64,000 bases of DNA from Parafrankia discariae (GCF_000373365.1 NZ_KB891159.1:62001-126000), one strand, 5' to 3'; counted from the stretch's first letter, positions 32,484 to 47,253 are shown. A program made the numbers and translations. Notes: generated by a model not told the origin, from the letters alone.

Positions 32484-34550
32484 TCAGGGTGATGCGGTGG
32501 GCGGGGGGCCGTCCGGGGCTGAAACGGCCGGCGGGGTCGTGACCGGGGTCGCCTCGCCCGGCGGCGCGGCCGAATCGGCGGCGGGCGGCACGGCTGCCGG
32601 TGGCGCGGTCGTGGGCGGCGCGATCGCGGGCGTGGTGGTCGCCGGCGGCGCGGTCGTGGGCGGTGCGGTCGCGGGCGGCGGGGTGGATGGTGTGCCGGCG
32701 GGCGGTGCGCCGGCCGGCGTCGTCGGCGTGCCGGTGGGTGGCCCGCTGGTCGGCGGCCCGCTGGCCGGAGGTCCGGTGGTCGGCGGCGTGCTGGGCGGTG
32801 GCGGGGCGGCCGGCGGGGCGAACGACTCCGGGTGGACGTTGCGGATGCGCAGGCGCACGACCGCGGGGCAGGCCCCGTCCGCGGGCTCGGCGGTGAGGGT
32901 GAGGACGATGCTGTCGTCCGCCAGCTCGGCGGTGGCGAGGCCGGCGCCGGGGATCCGGGCCAGCAACGCGGGCGCGGCGCTCGCGGCCTCGGCCGGCACG
33001 GTTCGGCGGCTCGTGGTGATCGCGGTTCCGGTGGTCGTGTCCACCCGCGTGTCGACGGTGACGTCGACGTCCGGCCACGGCGTGCGGGTCGCGGTGAGAT
33101 CGAGCGCCTCGTAGCCCGCGACATCGGGATCGAGGTCGGTGAGAGCGACGGTCAGGTCGGCCGCGCGCAGCGGCTCGCATCCCGGCGTCGGCGTCGGGCT
33201 CGGCGTCGCCGCGGGGGGTGAGGTACCCGGCGGGCTGGACGGCGCGCCGCCCTGGCCGTTCGGCGTCATCGCCACGATCGGCACGCCGTCCAGGGTCGGA
33301 GATCCGGAGCCGGCCCCGGACTCGGACCCGGAGCCTGAACCGGTTCCGGGAGCCGGCGTGGACGGCGGCAGCACCGCGGCGCCGCCCTGCCGGTAGCCGT
33401 TCAGGTAGGTCAGAACGGTGCGGACATAGGCGTCCGACGGGTTGTAGGCGAGAATCGCCGCGCGGAGCTGACCGGCGTCGGCCAGATCCCGGCCGTGGGC
33501 GCAGAGGTAGTAGCCGGCGGCCAGGGTGGCGTCGTAGATGTTGTGCGGGTCCTTGCGCCCGTCGCCGTTCCCGTCGCGGCCGGCCGTCCGCCAGGTGGTC
33601 GGGATGAACTGCATCGGCCCGACGGCGTGGTCGTAGGTCGTGTCGTCGTCCAGGGCGCCGCGGTCGCTGTCGCGGATCAGCGCGGTGCCGGCGGCGCCGT
33701 TGAGAGGCGGGCCGACGATGCGCCGGGTGACGGTGCCGTCGGCGGCGATGGGCCGCCCGGCGGCGTGCCCGGATTCGACCTTCCCGATGGCGGCGAGGAG
33801 CTCCCAGGGCAGGTGGCAGCCTGGTTCGTCCTCGGCGAGCCGGTCGGCCGCCTCCTTGTAGGCGGCCAGCAGCCGGGCGGGGACGCCCCGCGCCGCGGCG
33901 GTCAGGGTGATCGTCGTATGGGTGCCGCCCGGGTCGGCGGTCGCGTCCTCGGCGAGCGACTGCGAGGTGAGGGCGGTCGGATCGGGCGTCGCGGTCGGAC
34001 CGTTGGGGACCAGCTCGGGCATGGCCCAGTCGCCCGGGTGGACCGGCTGGGGAGCGGTGGTGCCGAGCTGGTCACGGTCGCCGCCGTCGTCGTCGTCGCG
34101 GGGTGCCCCCGCGGCGCAGAACAACATCAGGGCGGTCGCGAGCACGGTCGGCAGCACCGTCATGCGGACCACGCCCGACCGTCGGCTCCGGTGTGCCGGT
34201 GCCTGCCGCGCCGGCCTGGCGTGCCGGGCACCACGGGGGCTGGCGCCGGGGGGTCTGGCGGGGGGCGGGGGGCGCCGGTGCCGGGCCGTCCCGCCGCTCG
34301 GGCCGCCCTGCGCCGCCGGTGTCGCAGCCGGGCCCGAAACAACAGCCGGTAACACCGCGGTCCGAACTTCAGGAATACTCGCGCCGGTTGCCGGGACCGC
34401 CTTCCCCAACGGTCGATGACGGCCGGTGTCCTGCCGGGAGGCGCGTGGCTTTCCGTGCGCGTTGAACTGAACCTGCTGGCTCAATGATTCGCGTACAGAG
34501 GGAGGACCGGTCGTGGATTCACTAGGTCGGCGATGACGGCTCACCGGCAC
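32484..34550 (-). CDS. Membrane-anchored lytic murein transglycosylase (SLT type) with long Pro-rich linkers
   Basis: About 688 residues. A basic, Pro/Arg-rich cytoplasmic head (about 1-130) is followed by one hydrophobic helix (TVLPTVLATALMLFCAAGA). The catalytic domain has LLAAIGKVESGHAAG with the catalytic Glu near 259, then VGPMQFIPTTWRTAGRDGNG, DPHNIYDATLAAGYYLC and AILAYNPSDAYVRTVL. The last third has a strand-rich domain between Thr/Pro-rich linkers and ends in Pro-Thr repeats. It would cleave peptidoglycan glycan strands. The start is uncertain. GTG at 34550 has AGGAG just upstream; GTG at 34592 and ATG at 34163 are alternatives. Confidence 0.8.
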   Translation of the reverse strand: MPVSRHRRPSESTTGPPSVRESLSQQVQFNAHGKPRASRQDTGRHRPLGKAVPATGASIPEVRTAVLPAVVSGPAATPAAQGGPSGGTARHRRPPPPARPPGASPRGARHARPARQAPAHRSRRSGVVRMTVLPTVLATALMLFCAAGAPRDDDDGGDRDQLGTTAPQPVHPGDWAMPELVPNGPTATPDPTALTSQSLAEDATADPGGTHTTITLTAAARGVPARLLAAYKEAADRLAEDEPGCHLPWELLAAIGKVESGHAAGRPIAADGTVTRRIVGPPLNGAAGTALIRDSDRGALDDDTTYDHAVGPMQFIPTTWRTAGRDGNGDGRKDPHNIYDATLAAGYYLCAHGRDLADAGQLRAAILAYNPSDAYVRTVLTYLNGYRQGGAAVLPPSTPAPGTGSGSGSESGAGSGSPTLDGVPIVAMTPNGQGGAPSSPPGTSPPAATPSPTPTPGCEPLRAADLTVALTDLDPDVAGYEALDLTATRTPWPDVDVTVDTRVDTTTGTAITTSRRTVPAEAASAAPALLARIPGAGLATAELADDSIVLTLTAEPADGACPAVVRLRIRNVHPESFAPPAAPPPPSTPPTTGPPASGPPTSGPPTGTPTTPAGAPPAGTPSTPPPATAPPTTAPPATTTPAIAPPTTAPPAAVPPAADSAAPPGEATPVTTPPAVSAPDGPPPTASP

Positions 34551-34821
34551 GCTGCTCCTGGGCTCGGAGGCGCCCGACGGACAGTGCTCCACCTACCGGA
34601 CGCGGGGGCGCGTGTGACAAAACTACCTGTTCAGGACCCATAAGCCTGGTCCGGTGAAGGCGAAATCTCGCCGACCACCGGGCCAGGCAGGGCGCCGTGC
34701 GGCTGTGACGGAAGCCGTACGGCTGCTCGAGGGCCACGGACCGGTAGACGAGACCGGCCCGGAGCGGGCTGCCGGCTCTCTAGATCATCACTCTCCGTGA
34801 GAAATCCTGGTGCACTCGCGG

Positions 34822-35372: not shown

Positions 35373-36611
35373 TTGCCCGTGATCTCTGCTGCGCCCGTTC
35401 CCGCGGGCGCAGGTCACCGGCGTGGTTTCCGCCGGCCGCTTTTCCCGACCCGTCGCGTCGACCGCCCGCGCCCGCGTTCCGTCCTCCCGCCGTCTCCCGT
35501 CCCACACCCGTCCCCTGATGCGTGCCGCCTGCCGGGTTCCCCTCCCGGCGGGCGGTTACGGCGCCGCCGCCTGCCCGTTTTCAGCGGCGCCGTAACCGGC
35601 CGGGGCCATCGAGCCCGCCGTCCCGGCCGCGGTCGACAGGACCGTCCCCGACCTGCCGGGCGCGGTGCCGACCACGCCGGGTCTGGGCGATGTGCGTCTC
35701 ACCGACCGCGGGCCTCGCTGGCCCCGTCCGCGCCGCCTACGCCGCCCGAGCCCGCCAGCGGTCCACCCGCCGCGGCGCGGCCCGGCGGGGCGCTCCGCGC
35801 GGAGTTCGGGGAGTCCCGGATCGTCAAACCCGATCCGGGCCCCGGGCGCCGTGGCGGCAAACCCCAGGCGGGACGCACGGAGATCGTGCAGGAACGCACG
35901 GAGAGCACCCGTGAGTTCCACAACCCCGACGGAACGTTCACCACCGAGTCGACGATGGGCCCCGTCCGGTTCCAGGACGAGAAGGACGCCTGGGTCGACA
36001 TCGACACGTCCCTGGAGCAGGCGGAACCGGGCCGGCTTCGCGCGGCCGAGACCGAACACCCGGTCGAAGTCGCGCAGACGGCGACGGACCCTGAACTGGG
36101 GCGCGTCGAGCTCGGCGACGGCATGTCGGTGTCGTTCTCACTGGCCGACTCCGCGTCCGCCACGGCCCGGGTCGACGGCTCGAAGGCGACGTTCACCGGC
36201 GTGCGCGAGTCGGCCGACCTGGAGCTCGGCCCCTACCCGGATGGCCTGAAGGAGATCATCGTCCTCCGCTCGCCGGAGGCACCGACCACGTGGGAGCTCC
36301 CGCTAGCGCTGGAGGGCCTGACCGCCAGGGTCGACGACCGTCAGGTCGTCCTGGCGGACACGGCCGGTGAGCCGCGCGCCGTGATCCCACCGGGGTGGAT
36401 GGAGGACTCCCGCACCGAGGGCGGCACGCCCGCCACCTCCAGCGGCGTGACCTACGCCCTGACCGAAAGCGAGGACGGCGCCCAGATCCTTCGGGTGGAC
36501 CTCGACCGGGAATGGCTGTCGGACCCCGCCCGCGTCTTCCCCGTCAAGGTGGACCCCACCTTCAACATCGTGGGCCAGAATGTACGGGCCCAGACCGACG
36601 ACACCTACTAA
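35373..36611 (+). pseudogene. 5' fragment of a DNRLRE/RHS-type secreted surface protein, cut by IS630
   Basis: Only the part from about residue 145 looks protein-like: REFHNPDGTFTTESTMGPVR, KDAWVDIDTSLEQ, IVLRSPEAPTTWELPL and FPVKVDPTFNI. This matches the N-terminal region that precedes DNRLRE or RHS repeats in large secreted actinobacterial proteins. The first 140 residues are Arg/Pro-rich and look like a shifted frame. A better mature N-terminus (AVPAAVDRTVPDLPGAVP) is readable in another frame near 35610-35690, which suggests a frameshift. The stop TAA at 36609 is supplied by the inserted IS. No C-terminal half is found on the far side of the IS. Confidence 0.6.
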
Positions 36612-37732
36612 TGGGAAACTAAGTTATCGGAATGTTGATGTAGGTCAAGTCTGGAGATCGGAAGAACCCTCGGATGGCCTCTGGCGTAGCCAGGAGGCGA
36701 GCGAACGCTTTCTTGACGCTGTCGCGTAGCTCGTCGACGGCACGGGCGGCGACTTTTCCGGCGTTGTCGTTCTTCACGTTCTTCCAGACCCACTAGTCGG
36801 GGTTAAGTTCTGGCGATTAGGGCGGGAGCAGGAAGATCTTGAGTCGGCCTTCGGTCGACGCCACGTATTCCCGTGTGGCGGCGGACTTGTGGGCGCTGTG
36901 CCCGTCGACGATGAGAAAGACGGTGCCATCGATGTCATGGAGGAGCTGCTGGCAGAACTCGATGAACGTCGCGGAGGTGGTCGTGCCGTCCACGAGCGAG
37001 AAGTGGAGCTTCCCCTGCGCGGAGATCGCTGAGATCATGTTCACGGTCTTGCGGTTACCGGTGCCACGCACGATCGGGGTCTGACCGACTGGCGCCCAGG
37101 TGGTACCGGAGTGGAAGTCCGTCCGGACCGACGCCTCATCTCCGAAGAAGATCGACGCTCCCGTGGCCTGCGCTTCCGCGTGGATCTTCGGGTAGTCGAC
37201 CTGCTTCCAGCGTGCGGCGAGCTCGTGGTCCTGCTCCCAGGCTCGCGTCAACGGGCGTTGTGGCGACAGCCCCATCCGGCGCAGCAGCTTGCCGACGCCC
37301 TGGGCGGTGTACTCGACCCCGAACTCCCGACGGATCAGCTCCCGCACCATCTCCCGGGTCCACAGCGCGAAGTCGAACTGCATCTGTCGCGGATCCCGAC
37401 CAACGATCAGCTTCCACAGCTGTGTTGTCTGCTCCTCCGGGAGTCGCGGTGGACGCCCGGACGCGACCTTCACCTTCAGCGCCTCGGGCCCACCCTCGTT
37501 CCGCGCCTGCAACCAGCTGTACACCGTGGAAACGCCAGCCCCGAAAGCCAGCGCCGCATCCCTCGGATGCATGCCCTTGTCCACCGCGCTCAACGCGAGC
37601 AGTCGGACATCTTCCAGATTGCGTCGCGGAATACGAGAACCGGACCCCTGATCCATGAGTAAATTATCTCATGCCATTCCCGGCGACCTGACGTCGGTCA
37701 GTCAACATTCCGATAACTTAGTTTCTCATTAG
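36608..37732 (-). mobile_element. IS630-family insertion sequence
   Basis: A 1125-bp element with 31-bp terminal inverted repeats (36608-36638 and 37702-37732) that differ at one base; they begin CTAATGRGAAACTAAG. TA flanks both ends (36606-36607 and 37733-37734), the target duplication expected of IS630/Tc1-type elements. It carries one transposase gene on the minus strand, which has two nonsense codons. It interrupts the DNRLRE-type gene. Confidence 0.92.
36619..37656 (-). pseudogene. IS630 transposase with two in-frame stops at the DDE glutamate
   Basis: Reading from ATG at 37656, the protein has a helix-turn-helix (about 25-60), a linker, and a DDE domain with FFGDEASVRTDF and FLIVDGHSAHKS, the two catalytic Asp. 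After KIFLLPP the frame meets TAA (36817-36819), then SPELNPD, then TAG (36793-36795), then WVWKNVKNDNAGKVAARAV and so on to a final stop at 36619. In intact relatives this reads LPPYSPELNPDEW. The first stop thus replaces Tyr and the second replaces the catalytic Glu. The 56 or so downstream codons are undamaged, so the decay is recent. Confidence 0.88.
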
Positions 37733-37839: not shown

Positions 37840-38883
37840 TCAGTGGACCGCCGCGGTCATGAGTCCGGTGACCGGCAAGGGGGAGCCGGTCTCGTCGGCG
37901 AAACCGATGAAGCAGGTGGCGAGGCGGCTTCTCGCGCGCCAGCTTTCCGGCGAGATGACGCCCCATCGCGGTTCCACGAGCGCGCCACCGAAGCGGCCGA
38001 CCTCCAGGTATGGAGCGGCGAGGTCGCCGCATCGCGTTCCGAGTGCCTCGCGGAGCCAGTCCTCGGACGGCACGCCGCCGCCCGGGGGCTCCGGCGCGCG
38101 GACCACTCCCACGCTCTGCGTGTGATGGGGGGTGTCGCAGGGAGTCTCGACGAGGCCGCCTTCGCCGGCATGGCGAAGGCAGGTTCCAGCCGCGAACGTC
38201 CTGGCCTGGTCGGCGCCGCGGGCGTCTCCTTCGAACGGGCGGAACGCGGGCGGATCGGATGCGGTCATGCCCGCGGTGATTCCACAGGTGACCGTGCGCT
38301 GGCCGATGTCCCAGCCGGGCTCCTGTGGACGGATCATGCCGGCGGAGAATCGTCCGGCGGGATCGAGCGGATGACCCAGGAATTCCTCGATCAGGGGTAG
38401 GCAGTACTTGTCGGTGATGGCCTGCCATCGTTCGGGGGTGGGATAGGCACCGTCGCCCGGCTGGTCCGGCCGAATGTCTGCGTCGCCGACCGCCTCGAAG
38501 TAGTGGACACCCGCACAGGGAACGTCGGTGGTCGAGGTCGAGTCGACGTGCTGTCGCCAGGAGTAGCAACGGCCGGGCTGGTAGGTCTCCTGCGCGAACT
38601 CGACGACGGCGTCGGCGGCCGGGGACGCCGTCGGCGACCCATCGACAGGGCCGACGGTTGCTGCGACGGTCTGGTCCGGATCGCCGGACTCGCGGTCAGC
38701 GGCGCGGTCGCCGAGCAGCGCGACCAGCCCGTAGATCACGGCGCCGAGGAGAACAGCGTTGATCGCGATGGTCGTGAGATGGTCGCGCCATTCGGCTGCC
38801 CGCACCCGTCGGAGCCGGCGGGCGAGCCGGGCGGCTCGGTTGCCCACTGAGGTGGACCTTTCGTGGTTGTTACTTTCGGGCAC
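37840..38883 (-). CDS. Membrane protein with paired septum-formation-like domains, type A copy 1
   Basis: A 347-residue protein. One helix (about residues 38-60) separates a short basic cytoplasmic tail from a large outer part. That part has two similar halves. The first: GRCYSW, VPCAGVHYFEAVG, YCLPLIEEFLGHPLDPAGRF, VTCGI. The second: GTCLRHA, TPCDTPHHTQSVG, then WGVISPESW and TCFIGF. The Cys/His spacing matches the Septum_form-type domain found in actinobacterial membrane proteins. The GTG start at 38883 follows GAGGGAG. Three paralogues lie upstream on the same strand, and the leader is repeated. A cell-wall or division role is inferred from the domain name only. Confidence 0.68.
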   Translation of the reverse strand: MPESNNHERSTSVGNRAARLARRLRRVRAAEWRDHLTTIAINAVLLGAVIYGLVALLGDRAADRESGDPDQTVAATVGPVDGSPTASPAADAVVEFAQETYQPGRCYSWRQHVDSTSTTDVPCAGVHYFEAVGDADIRPDQPGDGAYPTPERWQAITDKYCLPLIEEFLGHPLDPAGRFSAGMIRPQEPGWDIGQRTVTCGITAGMTASDPPAFRPFEGDARGADQARTFAAGTCLRHAGEGGLVETPCDTPHHTQSVGVVRAPEPPGGGVPSEDWLREALGTRCGDLAAPYLEVGRFGGALVEPRWGVISPESWRARSRLATCFIGFADETGSPLPVTGLMTAAVH

Positions 38884-38914
38884 GCCGGTTACTCCCTCGG
38901 ACACACAGAATCAA

Positions 38915-38975
38915 AATGCGCCGCGACTGGCCGTGGACGTCCACAACAGCCCCGGATACTCAGATCAAAGCGACG
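38915..38975 (-). repeat. Shared leader repeat, upstream of type A copy 1
   Basis: About 60 bp read on the minus strand as TTTGATCTGAGTATCC, GGCTGTTGTGGACGTCC and AGTCGCGGCGC. It aligns with 43860-43920 and with part of 40317-40430. It lies directly upstream of the start. Confidence 0.65.
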
Positions 38976-38988
38976 GTTCGCGCCTCGC

Positions 38989-40257
38989 CTACGTGGTGAA
39001 CGTTCCCGAGCTGTCCGTGGGGCTGAGCGGACCGGTGGTCTCTACTTCATTTCCTGCCTGGTCAATGAAGCTGACCGTGCAGCTGGTGGATCGTGTTCCC
39101 GCGAGCCAGCTCTCGGGATGGATCAGGTGCCAGCCGCCTCGGGCTGTGGCGCCGTCGAAGTGCTGCGCGAGATAGGGGGCTGTCTGGGGCGCGCAGGCGG
39201 CCTGCACGAGGTCCTTGAACACATCGGACGAGGGTGGGGCGCCGTCGGCGGTGTCGGCCAGGGTGATCGTGCCGACCGTCTGCGCGTGGTGCGGCTCCTG
39301 GCAGGAGACCCGCTCCTGGCTGCCGTCGGTCGTGTTGCGGAAGCAGGTACCCGGCGGGTAGTTCATGGCCTGGTCCGCGCCTCGAACGCTGCCCGAGAAG
39401 GTGCTCATGAGCCATGGCGTGTCGGCTGGGGCGTCACTCCGAAGGCTCAGTCCACAGACGACGTCTCTGTCGCCGGTCTCCCATTCCGGCCGTCGCGGAT
39501 GGATGGTGCCTGCCGCGAAGCGCCCGAAGGGGTCGAGCGGGTGGCCGAGGTACGGCGTGACCAGCGGGCCGCAATGGCGCGCTTCGAGGTCGTTCCACTG
39601 GGAGATCGACGGGTACGGGGCGTCCCGCGGGTAGGCGGGGCTCAGGTCGAGCGGGCCGACGACTTCGAAAAGATGTGGTTCGGCGCAGGGGACGTCGTCG
39701 ACGGGGACGTCCGTGCTCACCTGCGGCCAGCTGTAGCAACGCCCGGACTTCCAGTCCCACCGACGTAGATCCGGACCGTGGTCGTCGAATGCGTCGGGGT
39801 CGGTGGCCGGATCGCCGGGGGAGGAACCGGACGAGTCGGGCCCGTCGGCGGAAACAGTGGTCGGCGGCGCATTGTTGATCTTCGACATGACGAACGGGTA
39901 CACCACACTGCCGAGCAGGACGAGGCTGATCAGCGCCAGGACGATCCGGCCGCGCGACCCTGTTCGGGGCGCGGCGTCCGGGAACGGCCGGGTGGATCGC
40001 AGTCGTGACCGCCGGGCTCGTGAATGCGGCCGCCAGGCGGTCCTTCCGTCCTCGACCGGTCCGAAGCGCGCGATGGCGGCCCTGGTGCGGGCGGGCGCCT
40101 CGTATCTGGTGGCCCCGGCGACGAAGCTCTCGTCGAGGACGAGGCCGGCGAACGGGTCCGCCTGGTCGACGTCGTTCTTGTCGCGGTCGTCGCCGCCGCT
40201 GCCGCGGTTGTCGCTGTCGTCGTTCTTCGGCGCGGGCGGCGCACTGTCCCCGGGCAT
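38989..40257 (-). CDS. Membrane protein with paired septum-formation-like domains, type B copy 1
   Basis: A 422-residue protein. The cytoplasmic head (1-103) has an acidic stretch and LVLDESFVAGATRYEAPART (39-58), then a basic region. A helix at about 104-123 leads to two outer halves. These have GRCYSW, VPCAEPHLFEVVG, CGPLVTPYLGHPLDPFGRF and VVCGLSL, then GTCFRN, SCQEPHHAQTVG, HPESW and CTVSF. The head motif recalls the FDEDFVRAA..EP region of Streptomyces spore-wall complex proteins SCO2583/SCO2584. ATG at 40257 follows GAGGAG. It is transcribed just before type A copy 1, possibly in one operon. Confidence 0.68.
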   Translation of the reverse strand: MPGDSAPPAPKNDDSDNRGSGGDDRDKNDVDQADPFAGLVLDESFVAGATRYEAPARTRAAIARFGPVEDGRTAWRPHSRARRSRLRSTRPFPDAAPRTGSRGRIVLALISLVLLGSVVYPFVMSKINNAPPTTVSADGPDSSGSSPGDPATDPDAFDDHGPDLRRWDWKSGRCYSWPQVSTDVPVDDVPCAEPHLFEVVGPLDLSPAYPRDAPYPSISQWNDLEARHCGPLVTPYLGHPLDPFGRFAAGTIHPRRPEWETGDRDVVCGLSLRSDAPADTPWLMSTFSGSVRGADQAMNYPPGTCFRNTTDGSQERVSCQEPHHAQTVGTITLADTADGAPPSSDVFKDLVQAACAPQTAPYLAQHFDGATARGGWHLIHPESWLAGTRSTSCTVSFIDQAGNEVETTGPLSPTDSSGTFTT

Positions 40258-40756
40258 GCCGGCGTCTCCTCGGGAGCTGGGATTCTCGGTGGTTTCGTGA
40301 TCAGAGGAGCGGGAGGCGTCGCGACTGGTGGCCGACGACCGCAACGATCACCGTCGTCCAGATCGGCTGATGCCCAACGCGATGATCTGAGTACTGGTGG
40401 CCGTGCAGCAGGCCATATTAGGGCAGGATGCGAAGGAGTCCCCACTCGGGTTCGTCCCGTCCGGGCTCTGTGGGGCGGATGGCCTGCTTTCTCTTTGTGT
40501 GGGCAATAGTTGAGAGTGTCCAGGGTCCAAAGACCTCTGCTCTCGGTTACCCGCGAGCACCCCCTGGAACGGCACCGACTAATCTGCTGAGCTTTCCGTT
40601 CTCTTCGTGCGGATCACCGCTGGAAGTCGGAAGCCGCCGTTCACGGGGTAGCTGACCAGGTGACTCCTGGCACGGAGAAAGGGTGCAGGTGCAGGTGTCC
40701 TCCTTCGGCGCGTCCCCGAGACAGGCCGATTCGCTCGCGCAACGCTCGCCCAGATC
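40258..40756. other. Intergenic region with leader repeat
   Basis: About 0.5 kb between the divergent type B gene and the lipoprotein gene. The part near the type B gene is the shared leader repeat; nothing else recognisable was seen. Confidence 0.5.
40317..40430 (-). repeat. Shared leader repeat, upstream of type B copy 1, with TAATAT promoter element
   Basis: About 115 bp that align with 43860-43980. Shared blocks on the minus strand are GCCCTAATATGGCC, CTGCAC, AGATCATCGCGTTG and CCAGTCGCGACGC. The TAATAT could be a -10 element for the B/A operon; no convincing -35 is seen. Confidence 0.65.
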
Positions 40757-41704
40757 GTGCTCGCCCACTTCTCGCTCACTTCTCGCCGGCTCGGCCGAGG
40801 CCGCGCCGGGCTCATCGCCGCGGGGCTTGGGCTTGTCGGGCTCGCGTTGAGCGGCTGTCAGCCCGCGCCGGGCGGCCCCGGTGGCCCGGCACCGACCAGC
40901 GCACCGCCGGTCACGGCGACTCCGGTGTCTCCGGAGACACCGACTCCGACCACGCCACCCGCCACGGCGACACCGACCCCCGGGGATTTTGAGCCCACAC
41001 CGAGTGGCGACCCCACCTCGACACCCACAGCGCCGGCGGGCGAACGCCTCAGCCCGATGGGGATGATCACCCTGGTCCAGGAACACGAGGGTGAACCGGT
41101 ATCAGTTCGCATCGCGCTGAGCATGGTCGGTTCGCGCCGCCCGACCATGTCCGGGACGGTCGAGATCGTCATCAACGACACCCTCCGCGACACCGTGACG
41201 TTGAAGCCCGGCCCCGGCTCCGCCACGGGCGAATGGGTGGTCCGGCTCGAACCCGGCGTCCAGCGCATGTCCGCCACCTACAGCGGCGACGAGTTCTACT
41301 AGCCGATCAGTTTCAAGGGCGGGACGACGATCCGGAACGGCCGGATCGAGGTCACGCCACCGGACCGGATCGTGGCCGGGCAGCCCTACACCGTCCGGGT
41401 GCGGATCGTCCCGATCAACGGAGCCACCGGAACACCGGCCGGCACAGTGGTCATCTCCCACGGATTCTGGCCCGACCAGGCGACGGTCACCCTGGACGAG
41501 AACGGAAGCGCCTCCGCCACCATCACGGCGTCGTTTCCCTCGGGAAACGTGCCGTCCGCACTCATGATGTACGTCGAGTACCAGGGTGACGGCACCTTCC
41601 TGCCGACCACGTGGACCGCCGTGCCCGCCATTCCGTACTCACTGCCGGACGCCGACCCGGCAGAGGGGCCGGAGACAGCTTCGACGGCTGCCGGCGGGGC
41701 CTGA
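40757..41704 (+). pseudogene. Ig-like-repeat lipoprotein gene split by an in-frame amber codon
   Basis: A GTG start gives a signal peptide ending in the lipobox LALSGCQP, then a Pro/Thr-rich linker. An Ig-like repeat follows (GTVEIVINDTLRDTVTLKPG; MSATYSGDEFY). TAG at 41300-41302 then interrupts the frame. The same frame continues without damage as ISFKGGTTIRNGRIEV and a second Ig-like unit (GTVVISHGFWPDQATVTLDE) to TGA at 41702. Intact it would be about 315 residues. Ig-like repeats of this kind usually act in adhesion or surface binding. A truncated lipoprotein of 181 residues is still possible. Confidence 0.7.
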
Positions 41705-41800
41705 GCGGTCAGCGGGATCGATCACGGCGGGGCGGTGGGCGCGAGCTTTCGTGGCCGTGCCCACTGCCCCGGAATCTCCCAGGCGCCGGCTCGCCCGTCG

Positions 41801-42712
41801 TCACGTCCGCGCCTGGTCGGCTCCGCGGACCTGTCCTTCCAGGTCGGGCACCTCGTTCGGCGCCTCGGGCGCGGGGCGGAGCGACAGTCCGCAGACGATG
41901 TCCCGCTCGCCGGTGTTCCACTCGCGTTCCCCGGGGCGCAGGATGTTCATCGCGAAGCGCCCGGCCGGGTCGAGTCCGTAGCCGAGATACGCGGTGACGA
42001 GCGGTTCGCAGTGCCATTCGCCGAGCGCGTGCCACTGCGCGGGTGACGGGTACGGCTCCCCGCCGGGGTACGTGGATCCGACGTCGAGCGGGCCCACTAC
42101 CTCGAACAGATGCCGATCGGCACAGGGGACGTCGTCGACCGCGCTCCCGGCGTCCGGCTGGAGCCAGGTGTAACAGTGGCCGGCCGTCCAGTCCCGTCGG
42201 TGGAGATCCGGTAGGGATTCCCCGGCGACGGCAGCAGCGGCGGCGTCGCGGCCGGAGCCGCTCCCGGCCGCGGGTGGCGGGCCCGACGAGAGCGTGGTGG
42301 ACGGTGGACTGTCGCCGGCCGAGGCCACGAACCCGTAGACGGTGGTCGCGAACAGGACGACGCTGAGCAGCGCCAACACGATCCGCGCCCGGGACCGCGC
42401 CCGGGACCGCGGCGGGGGCGAGATCTCCGGGAACGGCCGGAACGTCCGCCGGTGGGTCAGCGGCTGGCCGGAGGTACCACCAGCCCGCCTCGGCCGGTCC
42501 GCGCCGTACGAGCGCCAGGGCGTCGTGCTGTCCTCGAGGAGCCCGAAGCGGGCGAGGGCGGCTCTCGTCCGGGTCGGGGCCTCGTACCGGGTGGCTCCGG
42601 CGATGAAGGCCTCGTCGAGGACGAGGTCGGCGAACGGGTCGCCGAACGGGCCGGCGGCGGACATCGGGTCAGGTCCGTCGCCGTTCGGGGTGGGTGCGCT
42701 GTCTCCGGGCAT
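41801..42712 (-). pseudogene. Truncated septum-formation-like membrane protein, type B copy 2
   Basis: 303 residues, closely matching type B copy 1: the head LVLDEAFIAGATRYEAPTRT, one helix, then GHCYTW, VPCADRHLFEVVG, YLGYGLDPAGRF and IVCGLSL. It stops after GQVRGADQART, where copy 1 goes on for another 130 or so residues. The second Cys/His half is therefore missing, and the sequence beyond the stop shows no homology. It may still make a one-domain protein. ATG at 42712 follows AAGGAG. Confidence 0.65.
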
Positions 42713-42761
42713 GCCGGCGTCTCCTTGGAACATGGGATCTTCGGTGGAGTCGGTGCCGCGC

Positions 42762-43826
42762 TCAGATGACCGGCGCGGTGATGCTCCCGGTGACCGGTAC
42801 CGGGGAGCCGGCTTCGTCGGTGAATCCGACGAAGCAGGTCGTGCGGCGGGTACCAGTCCGCCAGCTCTCCGGTCCGATGCGACTCCATTGCGCGTTCACG
42901 AGCGCATCCCCGAAATGCCCGACCTCGAGATGCGGGGCGGCGAGCTCCGCGCACCGCGGGCCGAGCCGCGCGTCGAGCCACGTGTCGGACGGCGGGGCTC
43001 CGTCGTCGGTCTCCGGCGCGGTGAGCGGTCCTACGCTTTCCGCGTGATGCGGGGCGCCACAGGGGACCTCGCCGAACAGGCCGTCGTTCTCGCGGCGCAG
43101 GCAGGGGCCGGTGGGGTACACGAAGGACTGGTCGGCGCCGTGGGCGCCGCCTTCGAACGGGACGAATTCCGGCGGGTCGGACCTCGTGCCGGCGGAGATG
43201 CCGCAGGAGATCGCGCGCTGGTTCGTCTTCCAGGCGTTTTCGAGGGGCCGCATCAGGCCGGGCCGGAAGCGCCCGTCAGGGTCGAGCCGGTACCCCAGGT
43301 AGCGCTCGATCATGGGTATGCAGTACCGGGTCGAGACGGCCTCCCACTGGGCCGGGGTGGGATAGGCGGCACCCGCCGGGTAATCATCCCGGATGTTGGT
43401 GGCGCCGACGGCCTCGAAATGGTGGACGTCTTCGCATGGAACGTCGTGGACCAGTGGTGAGGTGCCGCCCCGCGGCCAGGAGTAACACCGGCCGGGCAGA
43501 TAGTCCCACTGCGGGAACCCGACGGACGCCCCGGAGCCCGCCGGAGGCACGGGCGCGAACCCGGCCGCGGACGGGCCGGCGTCGTTCGGGCCGGTGGACC
43601 CGCCGCCGGCGGAGTGATCGGCGCGGAGCTCGGTCACGCCGTGGAGAACGGCGCCGAGGAGAACCAGGTTGGCGATGACGGCGATCACCTGGCCGCGCCG
43701 GCCGATCGCTCGCAGCCGGGCCCGCATGGTCCTGCGGGTGACCGCGCGGGCGTCGGGGCGCCCTCGCCGGCCCCAGGTCTCTCGTTCCGAACGACGGTCC
43801 TCAAGACCGCCGTAGTTTCCGGGCAC
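42762..43826 (-). CDS. Membrane protein with paired septum-formation-like domains, type A copy 2
   Basis: A 354-residue paralogue of the 37840 gene. A basic head and helix (about 45-65) precede two outer halves. First half: GRCYSWPRGG, VPCEDVHHFEAVG, YCIPMIERYLGYRLDPDGRF, ISCGI. Second half: GPCLRREN, VPCGAPHHAESVG, IGPESW, TCFVGF. GTG at 43826 follows GAGGGGG, in the same context as copy 1. It is first in a unit with the truncated type B gene, 49 bases downstream. Promoter and leader are in the repeat at 43860-43980. Confidence 0.68.
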   Translation of the reverse strand: MPGNYGGLEDRRSERETWGRRGRPDARAVTRRTMRARLRAIGRRGQVIAVIANLVLLGAVLHGVTELRADHSAGGGSTGPNDAGPSAAGFAPVPPAGSGASVGFPQWDYLPGRCYSWPRGGTSPLVHDVPCEDVHHFEAVGATNIRDDYPAGAAYPTPAQWEAVSTRYCIPMIERYLGYRLDPDGRFRPGLMRPLENAWKTNQRAISCGISAGTRSDPPEFVPFEGGAHGADQSFVYPTGPCLRRENDGLFGEVPCGAPHHAESVGPLTAPETDDGAPPSDTWLDARLGPRCAELAAPHLEVGHFGDALVNAQWSRIGPESWRTGTRRTTCFVGFTDEAGSPVPVTGSITAPVI

Positions 43827-43859
43827 GCCGACTGCCCCCTCGGGCACGCAGGATCAGGA

Positions 43860-43980
43860 CGCGTCGCGAGTGGTCGCCGACGTCCGCGACAGCCGACGGT
43901 CAGTAGATCAATATGCGCGCAACGCGATGATCTGGCTACCGAGGGATGTGCAGCCGGCCATATTAGGGCTAGCTGTGAAG
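43860..43980 (-). repeat. Shared leader repeat, upstream of type A copy 2, with TAATAT promoter element
   Basis: It aligns over its length with 40317-40430 and over about 60 bp with 38915-38975. On the minus strand, CTGACA is followed after 19 bases by TAATAT, a loose promoter match. Confidence 0.65.
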
Positions 43981-44215: not shown

Positions 44216-45520
44216 TCAGGAGCGCAGGCGCCGGGCCGGCTCGGGCTCCCCGCTCACCGCGAGGGGCTGGGTGGTGGCGAGCAGCGGTTCGGCGGACGGC
44301 GCCACGATCGACGTCCGAGCGCGGCGCGGCGCGGTGCCGCGGGCGTTCACCCACGCCGGCCGGCGGCGCTGTACGGGCCGCTCGACGAGGTAGTAGGACG
44401 CCGACGCCAGCCCGAGGCTGACGACGAGCGCGGCGCCGGCTGACGGGACGCGGCCGAACCGGGGGACGAGCGAGTCGTTGGCGACCCCGGTGACGGGGAA
44501 GTGCCACAGGTACAGGCTGTAGGAGATCCGTCCGACCCAGGCGGCCGGACGCGAGCTGAGTACCCGGTCGTACCATCCGGGCCGGTGCTGGTCGGCCCCC
44601 AGGACAGCGACCGAGGCGAGAACGGCGACGAGCAGATAGCCGCCGCGGGCCATCCAGTTCGGGTCGCCCTTGAGGCCGGGGCCGGTGAAGAAGAGGATCA
44701 CCAGGCCCAGCAGGCCCAGTGGGCCGAACGACGCGGCGCGGGACAGCAGCTGTGCGGTGCGGCCCGTGGCCCGGGAAAGGTCGCCGTCCAGGACGCGGCC
44801 GCCCGCCGACGACCGCAGCGCCTCGTAACGCCAGGTGGCGAGCAGGCAGCCGACGAGCAGCGAGTCACAGCGGGTGTCCGGCGCGTAGTAGATGCGGAAG
44901 TTCGCCACGCCGCTGCCGATCAGGATCTCCCGCCAGATCAGCACCAGGATCACGGCGCTGATGAGGATCTCCGGCAGGCGCCGCCGCCAGCGCTCGCTGC
45001 GGCAGATCAGCACCAGGGCGATCGGCCAGAGCAGGTAGAACTGTTCCTCGAGGGAGAGCGTCCACACATGCCCGAACCAGGCGCCGCTGTCCGGGGGATT
45101 CAGTGTGCGCTGGATGTTGGCGACGTAGAAGACCGCTGCGAGACCGTTGCGAAGGAACTGCCACTGGTCGTCGGTGTCCTTGACGAGAAGGACGAGCGGA
45201 ATGCCAGCTGCTACAAAGATGTAGAAGGCGGGAAGGAGTCGGAAACCCCGCCGGGCCCAGAAGGCGCGCAGCGAGATCCAGCCCTCCCGGTCGCGCTCGG
45301 CCAGCAACAGGCCGGTGATGAGGAACCCGCTGAGTACCAGGAAGAGGTCGACACCCAGGTAGCCGCCGGGCACCAGGTCCATGTGGTGGAAGAGCACCGT
45401 CAGGACGGCGAGGGCCCGCAGTCCGTCAAGCGCCGGGTTATGGCCGCCGATGGTTGCTCGGCGAACAGTCCGCGCCGGTGGCGCCGGTGCTCCGCTCGTA
45501 TCTTCGGTCAGCTTCTCCAC
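44216..45520 (-). CDS. Acyltransferase-3 family membrane O-acyltransferase
   Basis: A 434-residue polytopic protein with about ten helices. After a short head it shows ALDGLRALAVLTVLFHHMDL (the essential His of the family), GGYLGVDLFLVLSGFLITGL, FWARRGFRLLPAFYIF, WTLSLEEQFYLLWPIALVL and ISYSLYLWHFPV near the end. The family acylates sugars or lipids at the membrane (OafA/OacA type). GTG at 45520 has a GGGGGGA site. The longer frame upstream to 45916 is Arg-rich and not homologous. It is divergent from the dnaN-like gene. Envelope decoration is likely; the acceptor is unknown. Confidence 0.86.
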   Translation of the reverse strand: MEKLTEDTSGAPAPPARTVRRATIGGHNPALDGLRALAVLTVLFHHMDLVPGGYLGVDLFLVLSGFLITGLLLAERDREGWISLRAFWARRGFRLLPAFYIFVAAGIPLVLLVKDTDDQWQFLRNGLAAVFYVANIQRTLNPPDSGAWFGHVWTLSLEEQFYLLWPIALVLICRSERWRRRLPEILISAVILVLIWREILIGSGVANFRIYYAPDTRCDSLLVGCLLATWRYEALRSSAGGRVLDGDLSRATGRTAQLLSRAASFGPLGLLGLVILFFTGPGLKGDPNWMARGGYLLVAVLASVAVLGADQHRPGWYDRVLSSRPAAWVGRISYSLYLWHFPVTGVANDSLVPRFGRVPSAGAALVVSLGLASASYYLVERPVQRRRPAWVNARGTAPRRARTSIVAPSAEPLLATTQPLAVSGEPEPARRLRS

Positions 45521-46008
45521 GATGGTTCCCCCCACAGGTCCCAGTAGTACGGGTAGCACTGACTGAGAACGATAGACGGGTCTTTTTCGATCAGTGGTGC
45601 CCACCTCGTCGGGGGTACCGGAAGGTGCCGCGCAATAGCCGGCGCAATGGCGTCGCGGATAGCCTGGTCCGCCGCGTGGATGATCCGCGGTTTGACACGC
45701 CATACGAGTCGTCGAGCTCTGGACACGTCGAGCGGACGCGGTGGCGGCGCGTCGCGGCGACACCGGCGACGCCAGCAGCGACGAGGCCGGTGCCGGGACG
45801 CGGCGGCGGCGCGGCGGGACCGGGCCGACGCCGCGGCGAGCCGGCGAGCCGGCGGGTGCGGCGGGGCGCCCCCTCCCGGCTCCCGCCCCGCCCAGGTCCC
45901 CGGGATGTCGCATCAACGGCCCTGGTGACAGGTCTGCCGCGCCGCCGCGAGCGGTGGGTGGTTTGCGGAATGCGGAGATTCGGCGTTGTCCGGCGCGACA
46001 ATCCCTGC
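45521..46008. other. Divergent intergenic region, no gene seen
   Basis: About 0.49 kb between the acyltransferase and beta-clamp starts. Frames on both strands are Arg-rich shadows. TTGACA at 45692 has no good -10 partner. Confidence 0.45.
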
Positions 46009-47253
46009 ATGAGGTTCAGCGTGGAACGCGACGTACTCGCCGACGCGACGGGCTGGGCCGCCCGGTACGTGCCGAAGCCCACCGCCGGCGCCCAGCAGGT
46101 GCTGACGGGCCTGCTGCTGGAAGCCACCATGCCGACCCCGGACCAGGTCCACGACCAGGCCGGGGATCAGACCGGGGATCAGACGCCGGAACAGGCCCAG
46201 GCCCAGGCCCAGGCGCGGGCGCGGGCGTCGGGCCCGGTGCTCACCGTCTCCGCGTTCGACTCCGAGGTCGCCGCGCGCGCCCCGGTCGAGGCCGTCGTCA
46301 CCGAGCCCGGCCGGGTCGTCGTGCCCGGGCGGCTGCTGGCGGACGTCGTGCGCAACCTGCCCGACGCGCCGGTCGTCGTCGAGGCCACCGGGACCAGAGT
46401 GATCATCGAGTGTGGCGCGGCCCGGTTCCGCATCCCGGCGCTCTCCGCCGAGGACTACCCGGTGCTGCCCGCGTTCCCCCCGCCGGTCGGCGAGGTGGAC
46501 ACGCTCGGCTTCGCGGCGGCGGTCGCGCAGGTGGCGCCGGCCGCCGGCCGGGACGACGCGCTGCCGGTGCTCACCGCCGTCCGGCTCGAGATCGCCCGGG
46601 GCGGGCTGACGATGGTCGCCACCGACCGCTACCGGCTCGCCGTCCGGACGATCCCGTGGCAGCCCACCGTCGACGACCCCGACGCGATCGCGCACGTGCC
46701 GGCCCGGCTGCTCGCCGACGTGGCGAAGCTGCCGACCACCGCCTCCCGGGTCATGATCGGGATGGGCGTCGACGAGGCCGGGGTCCTGCGCTTCGGGCTG
46801 TCGGTGAACGGCCGGCAGACGATCGTCCGGCTGTTGGAGGGGAGCTTCCCGAACTACCGCCGGCTGCTGCCGGAGACCTCCGAGCTCACCGTCACGGCGC
46901 CGACGGCGGTGCTCGCGGCGGCCGTCCGCCGGGTCGCGCTGGTGGCGACGCGTACGGCGCCGCTGCGGTTCACGTTCTCCGCCGGCCAGGTCGTGGCCGA
47001 GGCCGGGGACGGCGGGGGCGCCCAGGCCTCCGAGCTGGTGCCGGTGGAGTACGACGGCCCGGAGCTGTCAGTGCTGTTCAACCCCGGGTTCCTGCTGGAC
47101 GGCCTGGCGGCGGTCGAGGGCGACGAGGCCATCATCGGGTTCGCCACCGCCGACCCGGAGGTGGCCTCGACCAAGCCGGCGGTCCTCACCGGCAAGGACG
47201 ACGGTGAGGACTACCGCTACCTGCTCATGCCGATCCGCACCGGCGCGGCCTGA
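46009..47253 (+). CDS. dnaN: DNA polymerase III beta clamp (DnaN) paralogue
   Basis: A 414-residue sliding clamp with three similar domains. Typical strands are MRFSVERDVLADATGWAARY, VVVPGRLLADVVRNLP, FRIPALSAEDYPVLP, TDRYRLAVRTIPW, LLEGSFPNYRRLLPE and the C-terminal YRYLLMPIRT, which forms part of the partner-binding pocket. Residues 41-75 are an insert of Asp/Gln/Ala repeats (DQTGDQTPEQAQAQAQAR) in domain I, not found in standard clamps. It is not beside dnaA, recF or gyrB in this window, so it is probably an additional clamp. ATG at 46009 is chosen because homology begins there. Confidence 0.83.
   Translation: MRFSVERDVLADATGWAARYVPKPTAGAQQVLTGLLLEATMPTPDQVHDQAGDQTGDQTPEQAQAQAQARARASGPVLTVSAFDSEVAARAPVEAVVTEPGRVVVPGRLLADVVRNLPDAPVVVEATGTRVIIECGAARFRIPALSAEDYPVLPAFPPPVGEVDTLGFAAAVAQVAPAAGRDDALPVLTAVRLEIARGGLTMVATDRYRLAVRTIPWQPTVDDPDAIAHVPARLLADVAKLPTTASRVMIGMGVDEAGVLRFGLSVNGRQTIVRLLEGSFPNYRRLLPETSELTVTAPTAVLAAAVRRVALVATRTAPLRFTFSAGQVVAEAGDGGGAQASELVPVEYDGPELSVLFNPGFLLDGLAAVEGDEAIIGFATADPEVASTKPAVLTGKDDGEDYRYLLMPIRTGAA

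Follow-up and report, generated by a model that had tools for sequence, protein, structure and literature searches.

The array of four paralogous membrane-protein genes found in Parafrankia discariae (37840-43826 of the window, the whole 64,000-nucleotide stretch that was analyzed) is best read, from its sequence, as a fast-evolving, lineage-specific expansion of a proposed envelope adaptor. The four genes lie on the minus strand in the 5' to 3' order B1, A1, A2, B2, and are of two types, A and B. We consider that the A and B proteins may act as single-pass adaptors that link a cytoplasmic wall-synthesis machine to the wall, and that they are expressed from two operons within a lineage-specific expansion (probability about 0.38). 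We counted in favour of this reading the Septum_form matches, the topology and cysteine content, the Sc_trio_core motif of the A type, the lipoproteins of Parafrankia soli, the proximity to PdtA of the genes with the related motif, the specificity of a promoter-like element, dN/dS values below 1, and the non-monophyly of the B type. Against it we counted that the motif is at or below its cut-off in the A proteins of the window and absent from B, that wall-synthesis genes outside the array are not neighbours kept across genera, that most Frankia sensu stricto do without A and B, and that the lipoprotein gene of the window is broken. The anatomy of the array is solid, while its function is something we infer, at every step. 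The array belongs to a known but functionally unexplained family; its notable features are the recurrent pairing of A with B, the proposed capture of a promoter, and a private promoter-like element.

B1 (42762-43826, minus strand) and B2 (37840-38883, minus strand) encode proteins with a short N-terminus, one helix and two outer halves; A2 (38989-40257, minus strand) has an N-terminal motif, one helix and two outer halves, and A1 (41801-42712, minus strand) has the motif and the helix and ends after its first outer half. For each gene we took the start codon that has a purine-rich ribosome site shortly before it, at a distance of a few bases. All four exceeded the cut-off of Septum_form (PF13845; 98-198 bits against 25), with Pfam scores of 142.7 bits for B1, 98.0 for A1, 198.3 for A2 and 147.4 for B2. 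Since the E-values range from 8e-28 to 2e-58, a chance match is ruled out, and the four are genuine genes. Proteins of the same type are 50% (A1/A2) or 47-49% (B1/B2) identical, and A and B proteins are 35-39% identical to each other. The original prediction of four minus-strand genes with one helix each, a septum-formation-like domain, and two types that originated by duplication was confirmed by the reading frames, the single hydrophobic segments, the profile search, and the Septum_form paralogy together with a survey of relatives; the DUF4190-type match also suggested was not seen in Pfam up to E 10. Its overall description of the array holds for the four paralogous membrane genes, and fails for A1, which has no second half, and for the lipoprotein gene, which has an in-frame stop.

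The single hydrophobic segment of each protein has positive charge heavier on its N-terminal side, predicting a positive-inside orientation, and every cysteine is located C-terminal of the helix (8 in B1, A2 and B2; 4 in A1). B1, A2 and B2 have four cysteines in each outer half, the Septum_form profile covers both halves in these three proteins, and halves 1 and 2 are homologous (hhalign probability 98.4, E 1e-14). In A1 the profile is covered only at positions 1-127 of 227, and the gene is terminated by a TGA (41801-41803) after GADQART. The second half is present in its P. soli orthologue (72% identical), so A1 has been shortened from a full-length gene rather than having had one half from the outset; the paired Cys/His-rich outer halves previously ascribed to all four proteins are thus found in B1, A2 and B2, but not in A1. 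The cysteines and several His and Trp residues are conserved in nearly all full-length A and B copies. The AlphaFold model of A2 had a pLDDT of 79, exceeding 90 over most of the outer domain, and that of one outer half reached 88.9. Solved structures searched by sequence with the A/B profile gave no relative (best E 0.57), and the A2 and single-half models had no significant Foldseek match, with VIA-align Z at best 2.2. Such a missing match does not prove a new fold; since the confident outer-domain models are without match among solved structures, structure is no help yet on function.

The family label and older annotation would make these proteins divisome factors of the ZipA type, stabilising the Z-ring. 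Septum_form owes its link with septation to expression data on Rv3835, a member of the family for which transcription data led to a proposal of ZipA orthology (PMC3989709; PMC7921967); a review, however, calls this role unvalidated (PMC3989709), and peptides of Rv3835 carry hexoses, as expected of an exported domain (PMC7287972). For the genes of the array, no ZipA match was found among Pfam hits up to E 10. The FtsZ-binding domain of ZipA is cytoplasmic, whereas the conserved domain here is predicted to be outside the membrane by charge bias and cysteine content, and we regard a ZipA-type role as quite improbable.

Ahead of the A-type helix there is a stretch (DPFAGLVLDE...) near to the N-terminal domain of SCO2583/SCO2584 (Sc_trio_core; NCBIfam NF052257). 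The profile matched A2 at 40066-40158 (minus strand; DPFAGLVLDESFVAGATRYEAPARTR) with 26.7-30.6 bits around the cut-off of 30, and A1 at 42554-42640 (minus strand) with 21.9-25 bits, below it; no match was found in B types. A one-half paralogue that carries the motif, located between serA and leuA, scored 41.1 bits, and several A genes of the Pseudofrankia group and of Frankia also exceeded the cut-off. The full-length SCO2584 family (NF052259, cut-off 80 bits) was not reached by A2 (18.9 bits) or A1 (23.1 bits). Nearly all other strong Sc_trio_core carriers in a sample of genomes across the class belong to one family (f18), and the motif-pattern matches in named genomes outside Frankia were in Streptomyces and Kitasatospora, one of them a SCO2583-family relative. 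A short reading frame in another family (locus L135, family f31) has an A-like motif (GLVLDDNFVRGGAYEPPARTRVAIARFG) and a helix, and no outer part in the 3 kb examined. NCBIfam labels the SCO2584 family as spore wall biosynthesis proteins; none of the papers searched named SCO2583 or SCO2584. In S. coelicolor, SCO2578 (pdtA) is a few gene numbers from these two genes, and one report describes its product as a sporulation wall-polymer ligase, found when screening for partners of the spore-wall-synthesising complex (PMC7831098).

The original statement that no described system has this make-up did not hold, given the adjacent Septum_form genes in other families and the likeness of the A N-terminus to SCO2583/SCO2584. 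The Rv3835 / Cg3203 / MSMEG_6414 group of PF13845 shares the double-half cysteine domain, but here the genes form tandem A/B operons, A has the SCO2583/84-like motif, and A1 has one half. SCO2583, SCO2584 and SGM_3592 (NF052257-NF052260) share the N-terminal motif of about 30 residues on the cytoplasmic side; the A types, in contrast, are far under the full-length equivalog cut-offs, and their outer part is Septum_form. Neighbouring paralogues of this one domain are also found in other actinobacterial families (groups f19 and f26), although many of those genes are single-half and no Sc_trio_core match is listed for those genomes. The one-half paralogue of Parafrankia has the motif, the helix and one Septum_form half, but, unlike the array, it is found at a fixed location and evolves more slowly; it is probably the source or the sister of the array.

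In the adaptor reading, the cytoplasmic N-terminal motif of A would dock on a wall-synthesis complex of the MreB/PBP2 type, to which related motif-bearing Streptomyces proteins are tied by annotation. The helix would cross the membrane, and rigid, probably disulfide-stabilised outer halves would touch peptidoglycan, a wall glycopolymer or partner lipoproteins. B, which has no docking motif, would be co-expressed and would pair with A via the outer domain, so that the surface turned to the wall is adjusted or doubled. The A/B complex may position or tune wall synthesis in septation, sporulation or vesicle formation, and repeated duplication, promoter swapping and truncation may vary the outer surface between strains. 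MreB was found in 34 of 35 genomes of the family, the exception being 63% complete; since it is near-universal, also occurring in a genome without Septum_form (G019), its co-occurrence is weak evidence. Septum_form is widespread in Actinobacteria, yet our literature search found no experiment showing the function of any of its proteins, and an outer domain fused to an SCO2583/SCO2584-type motif offers a definite hypothesis, namely that these proteins touch the machinery that builds the spore wall. A further possibility, which we hold as doubtful, is a two-partner system (A with the docking motif, co-transcribed with B without it) that evolved independently in Parafrankia and Pseudofrankia, its variable outer domains retargeting a spore-wall or vesicle-wall synthesis complex. 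The proteins could instead be envelope sensors, in which the cysteine-rich outer halves would respond to redox state or to a ligand and the N-terminal motif would pass on the signal. The single-pass layout, the private promoter-like element and the varied outer domains are consistent with sensing; however, the motif has only about 30 residues, no kinase, anti-sigma or other output domain was found, and no conserved regulator was seen beside the array across genera, which makes sensors unlikely.

Our analysis of the promoter regions supports the two-operon part of the adaptor reading. Eight Parafrankia A and B genes have upstream DNA in common, two of them in the window, where a promoter-like element with core CCTANNATGGCCNGCTGC is located upstream of B1 (P1, 43950-43967, minus strand; CCTAATATGGCCGGCTGC, with TANNAT as the -10-like hexamer) and of A2 (P2, 40405-40422, minus strand; CCTAATATGGCCTGCTGC). 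These were the only two exact matches to the core in the 7.9 Mb genome, which had three further matches with one mismatch. The 35 family genomes contained eight exact matches, each of them in front of an A or B gene of Parafrankia, and zero matches to the reversed core used as control; as the pattern was built from those sites, their matching is by construction and the absence of other matches is the informative part. A consensus scan gave no standard sigma-70 promoter at the element, and hence "promoter-like" is an inference. A structured 5' leader was also considered and rejected (weak consensus fold, covariation term -0.51). A1 starts 49 bases after B1, and B2 starts 105 bases after A2, neither with a copy of the core in front, and the simplest reading of the sequence is two likely transcription units, P1>B1-A1 and P2>A2-B2. 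The start context predicted to be common to A and B is indeed shared, reaching well upstream as the element and leader, and the A-B then B-A order, earlier thought odd, is not strange when read as two operons with one promoter type. In P. soli, an acyltransferase gene is followed 250 bases on by the element, which leads into A1, whereas the same flank in the window leads into B1. The DNA upstream of B1 matches that upstream of P. soli A1 at 214 of 250 bases, reaching 100% identity between positions -70 and -11 relative to the start, while the coding parts are 70% identical, only the paralogue level. We therefore propose that the gene order goes back to the capture of a promoter, the breakpoint lying close to the start codon, by which B1 came into A1's place. 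The private element could serve as an entry point for testing expression in nitrogen-fixing symbionts.

Septum_form was present in 33 of the 35 family genomes and, in a class-wide sample, in 69 of 148 genomes. One-half matches recur across most of the family, and all six Parafrankia genomes have the motif-bearing one-half paralogue between serA and leuA (in G005 on two contigs). Five of the six Parafrankia genomes have double-half genes, and the sixth (G005) has a remnant. Such genes also occur in a few Frankia, as a single A in three group g6 genomes, and in seven of the eight genomes of g7, the group with Pseudofrankia asymbiotica that is termed here the Pseudofrankia group. Since most Frankia sensu stricto genomes are without A and B, the function of these genes is dispensable. 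A followed by B on the same strand was found in four Parafrankia (in P. soli with a PASTA gene between) and in five Pseudofrankia-group genomes, two of these with a shortened B. The A-B pairing anticipated in relatives is thus present in both Parafrankia and Pseudofrankia; neither of the outcomes named beforehand as refuting, no domain match or copies scattered singly, was observed, although five relatives have one A gene and no B. Among named genomes, an alignment-based scan of contigs located the closest genes in Parafrankia soli, Parafrankia sp. EUN1f and P. colletiae, which puts the window in Parafrankia, a genus of the Frankia family. Some Pseudofrankia-group loci (L071 6419-13155; L076 2827-6785, plus strand) also contain, upstream of A, Septum_form genes of a third type that is rich in proline, so that three or four paralogues stand in a row. 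In an outer-domain tree, Parafrankia and Pseudofrankia B types do not group as a single clade (AU p 4e-5), suggesting that A-B pairs arose twice or that gene conversion within the locus erased an older history.

Compared with their P. soli counterparts, A1, A2 and B2 of the window have 66-76% amino acid identity and dN/dS of 0.39-0.46, against 92% and 0.16 for the serA-leuA paralogue, and 91% and 0.26 for the acyltransferase (the clamp gene and 32487-34592 were left out). These values indicate that the three genes are under constraint yet fast-evolving. A non-adaptive, decaying expansion, in which copies of the conserved paralogue duplicate, drift under relaxed constraint and get lost, would fit the lower identity to P. 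soli than that of the core paralogue, the truncated A1, the stop in the lipoprotein, the IS630 element adjoining the array, the remnants in G005, G007 and G014, and the lack of A and B in most Frankia. Such decay is nevertheless somewhat unlikely, considering the dN/dS that remains at 0.39-0.46, the cysteines and the several His and Trp residues retained, the promoter-like element kept before A and B genes, and the A-B pairs apparently gained more than once. If the expansion were only neutral, it would still show clearly how operons are reshuffled when a promoter is captured.

The lipoprotein gene of the window (40757-41704, plus strand) looks broken: an in-frame stop (41300-41302) separates its two Ig-like stretches. 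The Big_3_5 matches on either side of the stop, at 26.6 and 34.3 bits, do not reach the cut-off of 35.5. In P. soli, an Ig-like reading frame that does exceed the Big_3_5 cut-off lies directly upstream of A2, on the array strand, and A1 and B2 have a PASTA-domain lipoprotein between them (L031 1734-2684, minus strand), also on the strand of the array. Since these Ig-like and PASTA frames are interleaved with A and B in P. soli, the lipoproteins are associates of the array in two genomes. The signal segment of the PASTA lipoprotein resembles that of the Ig-like one. Outside the array, we found no wall-synthesis neighbour of A and B conserved across genera.

Divergent tandem paralogues near a cut-off Rhs/DNRLRE-like reading frame (35373-36611, plus strand) could also be surface recognition or immunity proteins tied to a polymorphic toxin. 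The array region gave no hit to a toxin domain, however, and the flanks of the Pseudofrankia and Frankia A/B loci sampled consist of amidase, ABC transporter, helicase and luciferase-like genes, so that toxins are mostly absent in other genera too; we consider this origin very improbable. The frame had no convincing Pfam match; by eye it is like the N-terminus of an Rhs/DNRLRE-like protein, and it stops just before the IS630-type transposase gene (36817-37656, minus strand) beside the array. A related Rhs/DNRLRE-like fragment adjoins A2 in P. soli. A sliding-clamp gene (DNA polymerase III beta, with all three Pfam domains) is also located near the array, at 45454-47253 on the plus strand.
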